From positions 62,001-126,000 of the forward strand of contig CANGGP010000002.1 in the NCBI GenBank assembly GCA_947453445.1: a stretch of DNA of 64,000 bases, read 5' to 3'. Of this stretch, positions 15,614-21,225 are shown piece after piece. The position numbers and the translations under genes are program-made. The notes under the pieces were generated by a model. It did not search any database. It was not told where the DNA came from and saw only the letters and a program-made list of their open reading frames with translations. Positions within the stretch are counted from its first letter, which is position 1, and each line of letters starts with the position of its first letter. Source of the DNA: Sphingobacteriaceae bacterium. Its GTDB lineage: Bacteria > Bacteroidota > Bacteroidia > B-17B0 > Aurantibacillaceae.

Positions 15614-18031
15614 TTAAGATCCACAAGCCTCACAGCCTTCAGGATTATCCAAACTGCAAGCCAATTGCGCTTGTTGTTCTTCAAAACTCAACACATGGCC
15701 TTGTCCGCGGTCAACCACCAATTGGTCTTCGTTGCCTAACACAAAAGTTGGTTGTGCCAAAGCACCTTGATCAACCGTAAACTTAATGGCATCGGCTGCT
15801 GCTTTGGTACGTAAATAATACATGCCGGTTTTTAATCCTTTTTTCCAAGAATAGAAATGCGCCGAGCTCATTTTTGCAAAGTTGGCGTCTTGAATAAACA
15901 AGTTCAACGATTGCGATTGATCAATAAAGGCACCTCTATCAGCAGCCATATCAATAATGGTACGTTGTTTAATTTCCCAAACAGTTTTGTACAACTCCTT
16001 AATGTTTTGTGGCACTTCAGGAATATTTTGTACCGAACCATTAGCGGCAATAATTTTGTTTTTTAAGTTCTCGTTCCAAATACCCAATTTTACTAAGTCG
16101 CGTAACAAGTGTTTGTTCACCACTACGAACTCTCCGCTTAATACGCGGCGTGTGTAAATGTTGCTGGTGTATGGTTCAAAACATTCGTTGTTGCCTAAAA
16201 TTTGAGAAGTGCTTGCTGTTGGCATTGGTGCTAACAATAAACTGTTGCGGATACCGTATTTCATGATTTCTTCACGCAATACATCCCATTCCCAACGCGG
16301 ACTTGGCGTTACATTCCACATATCGTGTTGGAAAATACCTTTTGATACCGGTGAACCAGGATAAGTTTCGTAAGCACCATCCACTTTCGCCAAATCTTTA
16401 CTGGCAGTTAAGGCCGCAAAATAAATGGTTTCGAAAATTTCTGAATTTAATTTTTTGGCTTCTTCACTTTCAAAAGGGTAACGCATTAAAATAAATGCAT
16501 CCGCTAAACCTTGCACACCTAGACCAATTGGGCGGTGACGCATGTTGCTGTTTTTTGCCTCAGGTACCGGATAATAATTGCGGTCGATGATTTTGTTGAG
16601 GTTTAATGTGGCTTGATACGTGATTTCAAATAATTTGTTGTGGTCGAATGTGTTTGCTTTTTCATCCACAAAACGTGGTAAAGCAATAGATGCAAGGTTA
16701 CAAACGGCTACTTCATCAGGACTGGTATACTCAAGAATTTCGGTACACAAGTTGCTCGATTTAATGGTACCTAAATTTTGTTGGTTTGATTTTGAATTGG
16801 CAGCATCTTTAAATAACATGTAAGGATTACCGGTTTCAATTTGCGCTTCGATAATGGCAGCCCATAATTCGCGTGCTTTAATTTGTTTACGGAAACGACC
16901 TTCACTTTCATACTTTGTATACAAGGCTTCAAAAGCTTCGCTGTGGCAGTCGCTGAGGCCCGGACATTCGTTCGGACACATCAAACTCCAATCACCTTCT
17001 GCTTCCACACGTTTCATAAACAAATCCGGAATCCACAATGCGGTGAACAAATCACGTGCACGCATTTCTTCTTTACCGTGGTTTTTACGAATGTCTAAAA
17101 AGTCATAAATATCAGCATGCCATGGCTCTAGGTAAACGGCAATTGAACCTTTGCGTTTTCCGCCGCCTTGGTCAACATAACGGGCAGTTTCGTTGTACAC
17201 TTTCAACATTGGGATAATACCATTGCTGGTACCATTGGTGCCCTTGATGTATGAGCCGGTGGCGCGTACATTGTGAATGCTAATACCAATACCGCCTGCG
17301 CTTTGCGAAATTTTAGCGCATTGTTTTAAAGTATCGTAAATGCCGTCGATGCTGTCGTCTTTTACTTGCAACAAGAAACACGAGCTCATTTGTGGTTTTG
17401 GTGTACCGGCATTAAATAAGGTTGGTGTAGCATGTGTGAACCAACGTTCACTCATTAAATTATAAGTACGAATAGCAGCTTCAATATCGTTTTTGTGAAT
17501 GCCTACAGCAACACGCATAATCATGTGTTGTGGGCGTTCAGCAACACGATTATTCATTTTTAATAAATACGATCTTTCTAAAGTTTTAAAACCAAAATAA
17601 TCATAACCAAAATCACGGTCGTAAATAATCGATGAATCCAAGGTATGTGCATTGGCCATTACGATTTCGTATACATCGTCGGCAATTAAAGCGGCGCGTA
17701 AACCGTTTTTAGGATCGATGTAGTTGTATAAAGCTTCAACCGTTTTTGAAAATGATTTGATTGTGTTTTTGTGTAAGTTGCTTACAGCAATGCGTGATGC
17801 CAACTGCGCGTAATCAGGATGACGAACAGTTAATGAAGCGGCAGTTTCTGCAGCCAAATTATCCAATTCGCTGGTGGTTACACCATCATAAACACCATCA
17901 ATTACTTTTTTAGCTACTAAAATTGGATCCACATGTGTGGGCTCCAAACCATAACTAAGTTTTTGAATACGTGCAGTAATTTTGTCGAATTTTACTGATT
18001 CACGGGTGCCATCTCTTTTTAATACAAACAT
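15614..18031 (-). CDS. nrdA: Class Ia ribonucleoside-diphosphate reductase, alpha subunit
   Basis: Large catalytic subunit (805 residues) that reduces ribonucleoside diphosphates to deoxy forms for DNA synthesis. An N-terminal ATP-cone ([22 protein letters not shown]) gives dATP/ATP control of overall activity. The active-site Cys lies in SSCFLLQV near 215. The radical Cys with its Asn and Glu partners is in NLCTEI near 427, and the second disulfide Cys is in [11 protein letters not shown]. The radical-transfer tyrosine pair is in GMYYLRTKA. The C-terminal tail ends [14 protein letters not shown], the swinging Cys pair re-reduced by thioredoxin. It lies 240 nt downstream of nrdB on the same strand. 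A small hairpin with a GAAA-type loop (CCGAT/ATCGG, 18065-18078) sits in its leader. Confidence 0.97.
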
Positions 18032-18271: not shown

Positions 18272-19243
18272 TTAGAAATCCTCATCTAAATTAAACACGT
18301 TGTTTTCTTCTTTGTTATTCATCACGCCGGCCTTTTGGTATTCAGCCACGCGTTTTTCAAAGAAGTTGGTTTTACCCTGCAACGAAATCATTTCCATGAA
18401 ATCGAATGGGTTGGAAGCATTGTAAAACTTATTGCAATCAAGGGCCACCAATAATCTGTCTGCCACAAACTCAATGTATTGGCACATTAAGTCTGAATTC
18501 ATTCCAATTAATTTCACCGGAATGGCATCCACCACAAATTTCTTTTCAATGCTTACGGCATCGGTAATAATTTGGGTTACTTGTTCTTTTGGTAATTTGT
18601 TTTTTACATAGTGGGCATACAACAAACAAGCAAAATCACAATGCAAACCTTCATCACGGCTAATTAACTCATTACTGAATGTTAAGCCCGGCATTAAACC
18701 ACGCTTCTTCAACCAGAAAATAGAGCAAAATGAACCTGAAAAGAAAATTCCTTCAACAGCCGCAAAGGCAATTAACCTTTCGGCAAAAGAACCGTTATTA
18801 ATCCAACGCAAAGCCCATTGTGCCTTTTCGCCAACACAAGGTACCGTGTCAACAGCATGCAACAGATGGTCCTTTTCAGTAGGATCTTTAATATAAGTGT
18901 CAATTAATAATGAGTATGTTTCGGAATGGATATTCTCCATCATGATTTGAAATCCGTAAAAACAACGGGCTTCAGGGTATTGCACTTCGTTTAAGAAGTT
19001 AATCGCTAAGTTTTCGTTTACAATACCATCGCTGGCAGCAAAAAATGCCAACACATGTTTAATAAAGTGTTTTTCGTTATCGTTTAATTTATTGTTCCAA
19101 TCTGTAATGTCTGAAGCAAGGTCAATTTCTTCGGCCGTCCAAAAGCTCGCTTCGGCTTTTTTGTAAAATTCCCAAATGTCTTTGTATTTGATTGGGAAGA
19201 GGACGAAGCGGTCCTTATTTTCAACAAGTATTGGTTCTATCAT
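18272..19243 (-). CDS. nrdB: Class Ia ribonucleoside-diphosphate reductase, beta subunit
   Basis: 323-residue small subunit that holds the di-iron/tyrosyl radical needed by NrdA. The metal and radical motifs are present: FWTAEEID near 35, MENIHSETY near 107 (Glu, His and the radical Tyr), and [10 protein letters not shown] near 195 (Glu and His). The tyrosine is retained, so this is a conventional class Ia rather than a radical-less class Ic enzyme. The C terminus NVFNLDEDF is the docking peptide for the alpha subunit. nrdB precedes nrdA with a 240-nt gap that holds no gene and no clear terminator, so a common message is possible. I did not find an NrdR box. Confidence 0.96.
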
Positions 19244-19604
19244 AGTTTTAAAATGCTTATGTCAATTTTTAGAAGTCTAAATCACAATTGCAAATAAATG
19301 TAAAAATCATCCCAATAGATAATTAAATGAATTAACACAGTGACCAAGTTTTAAACAAGGATAATTGGTGATAAAATTTTTAAAATTTTCAATAGTGTTG
19401 ATTTACAACCGAGTAATAAAATTGCGAAAAAAAACACAAAAATTGTTGCGTTTTAAAAAAATGTTTTTACAAGTTCAAGTAATTCACAAAATGGTTAAAA
19501 AACTTGTTGATACCTTCCGCCAACATACTGCATTTATGCGACTTTAATCGAATAACTTTACACGAATGCCTTGTAAAGGGTGGATACACAATTGAATTAA
19601 ACGA
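19244..19604. other. AT-rich intergenic region between divergent nrdB and sigma-like gene
   Basis: 361 nt without a credible gene; the only short reading frame is Lys-rich low-complexity sequence. It must hold the promoters for nrdB (minus) and the sigma-like gene (plus). The best plus-strand -7-like box is TAACTTTA (19553-19560), one base off consensus and without a clear -33 partner. I see no repeats, no RNA gene and no DnaA-box cluster here. Confidence 0.5.
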
Positions 19605-20171
19605 ATGACTGCATCGGCGGACTTATTACAACTCATACACAAAAAGGATCCAAAAGCACTAAAGCAGCTTTTTGATGAGCTTTATCCAAAGTTTTCGGCC
19701 ATTGCCTTACGTTACGCAAAAAACACCCTTCAAGCCGAACAGCTCTTGCATCAAGGCTTGTTGCATTGTTTTAACAGTGCCCAACAACAAAGGCATCTTA
19801 AGGCCATTGAATTTGATGCTTTTCTCGAATCGGCCTTTATTTTGTCCTGCATACAAACCATCAAAGAAATCCGAAACGAATATTATGTATCAAGCACGGT
19901 GCACGCCACCGAAAGCCAGCCTGGTATTTATAATTTATTCGACAGCCAAGAGTGGACCGATTTAAACCAAGTGAGTACCGAGGTTTTAATCCTTTCTTTA
20001 CAACAATTGGTGCCTTCGCAGCGCTTGGTTTTTAACCTGCATGTGATTGATGGTAAAAGTTTAAACGATGCTGCCAACTTTTTAGAATCGAGTATTGAAA
20101 CCGTCAAAAGTAACCTCGAGAAAGCCCGTTATCACCTTCAAAAAAACATAGAGAAAAATTTAAAAAAATGA
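19605..20171 (+). CDS. ECF-like RNA polymerase sigma factor
   Basis: 188 residues. The N-terminal half resembles sigma region 2 (KALKQLFDELYPKFSAIALRYAKN, then AEQLLHQGLLHCF). The C-terminal half is a better match to region 4, the -35-binding helix-turn-helix: LSLQQLVPSQRLVFNLHVIDGKSLNDAANFLESSIETVKSNLEKARYHLQK. Its stop overlaps the start of a one-pass membrane protein by 4 nt (ATGA), the standard layout of a sigma factor with a membrane anti-sigma. Region 2 is divergent, notably in the -10 melting segment, so it could recognise an unusual promoter or act only as a regulator. It is the first gene of a three-gene unit ending in a truncated globin. Confidence 0.75.
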   Translation: MTASADLLQLIHKKDPKALKQLFDELYPKFSAIALRYAKNTLQAEQLLHQGLLHCFNSAQQQRHLKAIEFDAFLESAFILSCIQTIKEIRNEYYVSSTVHATESQPGIYNLFDSQEWTDLNQVSTEVLILSLQQLVPSQRLVFNLHVIDGKSLNDAANFLESSIETVKSNLEKARYHLQKNIEKNLKK

Positions 20172-20866
20172 GCGGCCACTTTGTTTACGAAATAGATGAA
20201 CGAAAATTGCGGGTGCGCCTTCAAGAATTTGAAGTTGAACCCAAACAAGAAGCTTGGAGCAATTTTGAGGCCTATTACCATTCGGTTCAACAACAAAAAA
20301 ACGATCGCCAAGGCTTAAAATTTAATGTGCCAATTTCAATGAATGTTTTGCTGCCAATTGTTTTTGGCGCCGTTATCATTGTTATTGCCGTACTGTTATT
20401 TCAATTTATCAGCATTAAAAACCCGCCGGTAAATGACGTTGAAAAAGTGATTGAACCCGCTAAGCAAATAAAGGATACTAGCGCGATTAAACCTATAAAA
20501 CCACTTGTTTTAACGCACCTCGATTCAATTGCCAAAGGCCTTGTTTCGGTGCCAACCAAAAGCGCAGAGCCCTTGCAAAACGACACATTAATCGCTGCGC
20601 CCCCAGCCCAAACGTTGTCGGCATCAAACAACAGTTCTAAGCAGGTTGTGACAAATAAAGTCGCCTTAAGCGATACGGGCCGAAAAAACAAAGAACTGAG
20701 CAAAAGCAAAACTGAGATTAAAAACGATAAAGAAAACACCAAGCCCAAGAAGAAAAAATCTAAAAAGAGCAGCAACGAAACTTCCGAGCAAGAAAAATTG
20801 ATTGAAGAATTACCGGGCAACACAGTTGACGAAACCGGCGCTTCATTAAAACCAAATACCCCATGA
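20168..20866 (+). CDS. One-pass membrane protein, candidate anti-sigma factor
   Basis: 232 residues. A cytoplasmic N-terminal part of about 57 residues (FEVEPKQEAWSNFEAYY) precedes a single membrane helix (MNVLLPIVFGAVIIVIAVLLF, about 58-80). A long Pro/Ser/Lys-rich outer segment follows, with a highly basic stretch near 195-210 (KPKKKKSKKSS). There is no recognisable zinc anti-sigma motif. The role as anti-sigma is inferred from topology, from the 4-nt overlap with the sigma-like gene upstream, and from the conserved WxxFE-type N terminus often seen in Bacteroidota membrane proteins downstream of such sigma genes. Its stop overlaps the globin start by 4 nt as well. Function otherwise unknown. 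Confidence 0.65.
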   Translation: MSGHFVYEIDERKLRVRLQEFEVEPKQEAWSNFEAYYHSVQQQKNDRQGLKFNVPISMNVLLPIVFGAVIIVIAVLLFQFISIKNPPVNDVEKVIEPAKQIKDTSAIKPIKPLVLTHLDSIAKGLVSVPTKSAEPLQNDTLIAAPPAQTLSASNNSSKQVVTNKVALSDTGRKNKELSKSKTEIKNDKENTKPKKKKSKKSSNETSEQEKLIEELPGNTVDETGASLKPNTP

Positions 20867-21225
20867 AGCAGGATATAACAAACAAGCAAGATCTTGAAGT
20901 ATTAATCGACACTTTTTACACCCGCTTGTTATTACTCGATGGAATGCCTGCTGTTTTTGAGGGATTAAACTTCGAAGCCCACAAGCCACGCATTGTGCAA
21001 TTTTGGGCTTTTGTTTTGTTGGATGAATCGGGTTATACCACCAATGTGTTCGACAAGCACCTGCATCTTCCCATTAAATTATACATGTTTCAACAGTGGT
21101 TGCAAGCTTTTGTTGCTACCGTGAATGATTTGTTTGAAGGCGAAAAGGCCCAAATGGCCATACAGCGCGCCACTGTACTCACATTTACATTCGAAAGCAA
21201 GTGGCAAAAATTAAAGCCTGAATGA
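20863..21225 (+). CDS. Group III truncated hemoglobin
   Basis: 120-residue two-on-two globin. It shows the TrHb3 pattern: FYTRL with Tyr19 at helix position B10, PAVF with Phe32 at CD1, FWAFVLL in helix E, the proximal heme-binding His at NVFDKHLHLP (about residue 66), and QQWLQAF with Trp79 in helix G. TrHb3 proteins bind O2 and NO and have been linked to microaerobic or nitrosative conditions in other bacteria; the exact chemistry here is unknown. The start overlaps the preceding membrane-protein gene by 4 nt, so translation is probably coupled. Its stop codon directly abuts the stop of the converging T9SS gene, with no spacer and no terminator visible. The globin fold assignment is good; the physiological role is inference. 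Confidence 0.85.
   Translation: MKQDITNKQDLEVLIDTFYTRLLLLDGMPAVFEGLNFEAHKPRIVQFWAFVLLDESGYTTNVFDKHLHLPIKLYMFQQWLQAFVATVNDLFEGEKAQMAIQRATVLTFTFESKWQKLKPE

Follow-up and report, generated by a model that had tools for sequence, protein, structure and literature searches.

The question raised by this locus is whether three overlapping genes form a single functional cassette in which a gas-binding globin serves a transcription switch, as the initial annotation had proposed. In the window, by which we mean the whole 64,000-nt stretch of DNA that was analysed, three co-directional open reading frames (ORFs) follow one another, and an ATGA is shared at both junctions, exactly where that annotation had placed these overlaps (Table 1). 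Overlaps of 4 nt were found in 3 of the 29 co-directional neighbour pairs of the window, two of the three being junctions 1 and 2; since such overlaps are this common, a single one is weak evidence, and it is the comparison with relatives that decides. That comparison makes it likely that genes 1 and 2 are an envelope-responsive ECF sigma/anti-sigma switch and that the globin is a neighbour co-transcribed with them in the window's lineage only. Almost throughout the genus, the ribonucleotide reductase genes lie divergently to the sigma gene; they are named from their sequences as nrdB-like (18272-19243 in the window) and nrdA-like (15614-18031).

Table 1. Features of the three-gene locus, in window coordinates
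Feature	Position	Strand	Product	Remark
Degenerate ECF-type promoter AACTTT-N12-TGTAAAG, upstream of sigma gene	19554..19578	+		Aligned with relatives' GNAACTTT-N13/14-CGTWWAA; scores 10.5/13
Gene 1, ECF sigma factor	19605..20171	+	188 aa	
Junction 1, ATGA overlap of sigma and TM genes	20168..20171	+		Kept in relatives as -4, -8 or -17 nt
Gene 2, putative anti-sigma factor	20168..20866	+	232 aa	Single-pass membrane protein
Junction 2, ATGA overlap of TM and globin genes	20863..20866	+		Window only
Gene 3, group III truncated haemoglobin	20863..21225	+	120 aa	

ECF sigma factors were taken to be proteins that consist of sigma regions 2 and 4 only, are about 160 to 200 aa long and score above the family cut-off. 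Gene 1 falls within this class of the sigma-70 superfamily, as it scored 48.2 bits against NCBIfam TIGR02937 (sigma70-ECF; cut-off, 42.9), and a profile of 29 of its relatives aligned end to end with SigW (5wuq; E = 1.3e-13). The gene also matched Pfam Sigma70_r4_2, i.e., sigma-70 region 4 (E = 4e-7), and stayed under the curated cut-off of TIGR02985, the Bacteroidetes sigma-70 subfamily 1 (48.2 versus 126.4 bits). Its sequence thus places gene 1 firmly among the ECF sigma factors, and the window's genome has about a dozen ECF-type genes in all. Orthologs were found in 34 of the 37 genomes of the genus and also in the sister genus; the genomes with no clear ortholog were G008, G048 and G051, of which G048 is only 60% complete.

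The product of gene 2 has one transmembrane (TM) segment according to both hydropathy and an AlphaFold2 model. In that model, which is of low overall confidence (mean pLDDT, 61.5; helices, 80 to 96), cytosolic helices at residues 11-20 and 27-46 precede the TM segment at about residues 58-84, and the periplasmic remainder is disordered, with no structure beyond about residue 90. No sequence match to any known anti-sigma factor was obtained for gene 2 in Pfam, NCBIfam or PDB sequences, the last of which gave no match of any kind. The gene evolves fast; nevertheless, the N terminus is conserved in the alignment of relatives, with Y7, E11 and W30 invariant, and a short motif at the C terminus, AExLExI...ELR or EVRPN, is found again in homologs across the genus. 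In one subclade the periplasmic part of the homologs includes an SH3_3-like domain, which scored above the Pfam cut-off in one of the three tested; bacterial SH3-like domains were noted at 10 loci of gene 2 homologs. A sigma-adjacent gene, cytosolic N-terminal helices and a TM anchor together make up the anatomy of a membrane anti-sigma factor, and gene 2, with its two-helix-plus-TM layout, is well supported as a putative anti-sigma factor.

The pairing of these two genes is conserved. Sigma and TM genes overlapped in all 33 genus loci measured, by the lengths given in Table 1, and in the sister genus they overlap by 17 nt, with no globin beside the pair. In more distant Bacteroidia, sigma genes are likewise followed by genes for similarly organized TM proteins, some of which are fused to PKD/CHU_C domains or to a beta-barrel, and the window's genome itself encodes a paralogous sigma factor followed by a Dma-like protein with a TM segment, a tether and a weak barrel. 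At one locus (L090, 6315-7424) PKD and CHU_C domains, the latter a type IX secretion signal, are fused to the sigma-linked TM protein, which stands in tandem with another sigma-TM pair that precedes UvrC. Genes for PorP/SprF type IX secretion membrane proteins were seen after the sigma-TM pair in three genomes. A link of the pair to type IX secretion was considered and rejected: PorP/SprF lie downstream in G002, G054 and G056, but UvrC, kynureninase or other genes do so elsewhere, and because these neighbours vary by genome, the pair has no fixed downstream partner.

Most relatives have an ECF-type promoter, GNAACTTT-N13/14-CGTWWAA, about 42 to 55 nt before the start codon of the sigma gene; the motif was perfect in 22 of 33 relatives, compared with 0 of 1,650 shuffles. 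Its position suggests that the sigma factor is autoregulated. Because the corresponding promoter of the window is degenerate, autoregulation may be weakened in the window's species. A genome-wide scan for the motif gave no enrichment over a reversed control. A conserved ECF-type promoter (AACTTT-N13-CGTTTAA or CGTTATA) was also seen about 90 to 150 nt upstream of rpoD in 19 of 32 genomes, in addition to a proximal housekeeping-like box. As a candidate member of the gene 1 regulon, rpoD was rejected: its site is perfect in G008, which has no gene 1 sigma, and absent from G042 and G043, which have one. Since the site and this sigma factor do not consistently occur together, a different ECF is likelier to use it.

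Group III truncated haemoglobins were recognized by the 2-on-2 globin fold together with TyrB10, PheCD1, HisE7, HisF8 and TrpG8. Gene 3 scored below the Pfam globin cut-off and matched Campylobacter jejuni Ctb with an E value of 1e-9; the Ctb structure, 2ig3, was its best PDB match both by sequence and by fold (Foldseek TM-score, 0.83), the AlphaFold2 model having a pLDDT of 93.7. Residues Y19, F32, H40, F47, W48, H66 and W79 were invariant in 30 relatives, and with this fold and these haem-pocket residues the predicted product is a group III truncated haemoglobin. The products named in the initial annotation, a sigma-like protein, a one-pass membrane protein and a truncated globin, are thus all borne out, and its reading of the first two as a sigma/anti-sigma pair is well supported by the full-length ECF profile, the conserved overlap, the helix layout and the ECF-type promoter. 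Functional data on relatives of the gene 3 globin are mixed (PMC5577044). A second group III globin of the window's genome (contig C33, 11017-11376) adjoins genes for NosD, an ABC ATPase, a permease and NosL, a setting consistent with N-oxide chemistry for the globin family.

The second junction behaves differently from the first. The globin gene lies downstream of gene 2 in 26 of the 37 genus genomes, and at these 26 loci the two genes overlap once, in the window. In all 25 relatives with the adjacency the gap is +20 to +710 bp, compared with -4 in the window, and in five of them an additional ORF intervenes. A TAnnTTTG/A motif, the Bacteroidota -7 box, ends 4 to 6 nt ahead of the globin ATG in 16 of the 25; shuffles gave an expectation of 0.24 and a maximum of 3. 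A box 4 nt before the ATG suggests that globin transcripts of relatives are leaderless. Housekeeping -7 boxes just 4 nt ahead of the ATG were seen, for example, at eight loci of relatives. No such box was found within 220 nt upstream of the window's globin, and for this reason that globin would most simply be expressed by read-through from the sigma operon.

These observations fit a switch to which the globin was joined in one lineage. At rest, the two cytosolic helices of gene 2 would hold the sigma factor at the membrane; an inducing signal at the periplasmic tail, with its disordered stretch and conserved C-terminal motif or, in the subclade, its SH3 domain, would release it, and the freed sigma factor would transcribe its own operon from the AAC/CGT promoter. 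We infer such sequestration and autoregulation, as well as co-expression of the globin in the window's species. Transcription of the globin would normally start at a housekeeping promoter of its own. Since the window's lineage has lost both this promoter and the intergenic region, the globin is probably read into the sigma transcript there, and in this lineage only, and is probably coupled translationally as well; it would be a passenger or an effector and not a sensor. Against this reading, retention of the adjacency in 26 of the 37 genus genomes might point to a slight benefit.

The neighbourhood might instead be pure chance, with the globin unrelated in expression to the switch even in the window's species and the overlap a neutral deletion. 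The commonness of 4-nt overlaps agrees with this, as do the unrelated contexts of globins elsewhere: those of other genera lie, for example, beside nosD/ABC/nosL or Rrf2 genes, and non-adjacent orthologs within the genus lie beside complex I or UvrA genes. The window's globin, however, has no promoter box of its own in the 220 nt examined, and we consider chance an unlikely explanation. Another proposal, that the sigma switch controls the globin as its target throughout the genus wherever the adjacency is kept, draws on the persistence of that adjacency in most genus genomes; it is very unlikely, given that no ECF motif precedes the globin, that the housekeeping box stands there in most of the adjacent relatives, and that wide gaps and intervening ORFs separate the genes.

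The proposal of the initial annotation, in which the globin binds O2 or NO and passes its state to the sigma/anti-sigma pair, has in its favour the overlaps in the window, the adjacency within the genus and the retention of every haem-pocket residue. Against it, the sigma-TM pair occurs without a globin beside it in eight genus genomes, with the globin ortholog elsewhere in G002, G042, G043, G049 and G052 and not found in G014, G023 and G024; in G024, kynureninase overlaps gene 2 instead. On a tree of NrdA and NrdB the non-adjacent cases are mostly one clade plus G002, so the adjacency has likely been lost several times within the genus. In the sister genus the pair and the globin are on different contigs, and at the other globin loci inspected outside the genus no homolog of the gene 1 sigma factor or the gene 2 TM protein adjoined the globin. 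Kynureninase, the next gene, is found beside the globin with about the same frequency as the sigma pair; the globin-kynureninase and TM-globin orders are about equally well conserved, so synteny is general to the block. Mirror-tree partial correlations were 0.61 for sigma-TM, 0.50 for sigma-globin and 0.44 for a kynureninase control, values at which the cognate pair is not separable from the control. With the globin's own promoter in relatives and an overlap confined to the window, a sensor role is highly improbable and the claim of a gas-binding globin tied to the switch is unsupported. The three-gene order on which that claim was to be judged holds for the sigma-TM pair, which overlaps in the sister genus too, but not for the globin, and a single functional cassette is not supported: its tight coupling belongs to the window and its adjacency to one genus. 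Least probable of all is that the captured globin now reports its haem-gas state to the anti-sigma or sigma factor, which would be a new soluble-globin-gated ECF switch. We return to the reading of a conserved switch with a lineage-specific neighbour, under which gene 3 most likely encodes an independent protein of putative O2/NO chemistry.

The locus makes it possible to test by comparison when an operon-like overlap means something: junction 1 is kept across the family, and junction 2 arose in one lineage by an event that removed a separate globin promoter. If read-through is true, the locus is a natural example of a globin gene captured by an ECF operon. Each of the three parts is of a known kind; among the top matches in open-licence papers, none joined a truncated haemoglobin with an ECF/anti-sigma operon.

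The closest counterparts of the pair are CnrY, with CnrH, and the Das/Dma systems. CnrY carries a membrane anchor, as gene 2 does, and the two also share a pair of short cytosolic helices, although sequence similarity between them is not detectable. In CnrY, a class II anti-sigma factor, these helices are the sigma-binding part (PMC7406223). The Das/Dma systems likewise join a Bacteroidota ECF sigma factor to an adjacent anti-sigma factor with a short cytosolic N terminus, one TM helix and a long disordered tether, and the layout of N terminus and TM helix in Dma anti-sigma factors is that of gene 2 (PMC13088901). Dma proteins are defined, however, by a C-terminal outer-membrane beta-barrel, and a Pfam search found no barrel domain in gene 2; for that reason we call it Dma-like in its predicted layout and not a Dma member, a compact, barrel-less relative of this anti-sigma layout with a periplasmic SH3 variant. 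Gene 3 resembles C. jejuni Ctb in fold, length and haem-pocket residues and differs from it in sequence (28% identity), and in C. jejuni Ctb is regulated by NssR and not by an ECF sigma factor (PMC5577044).
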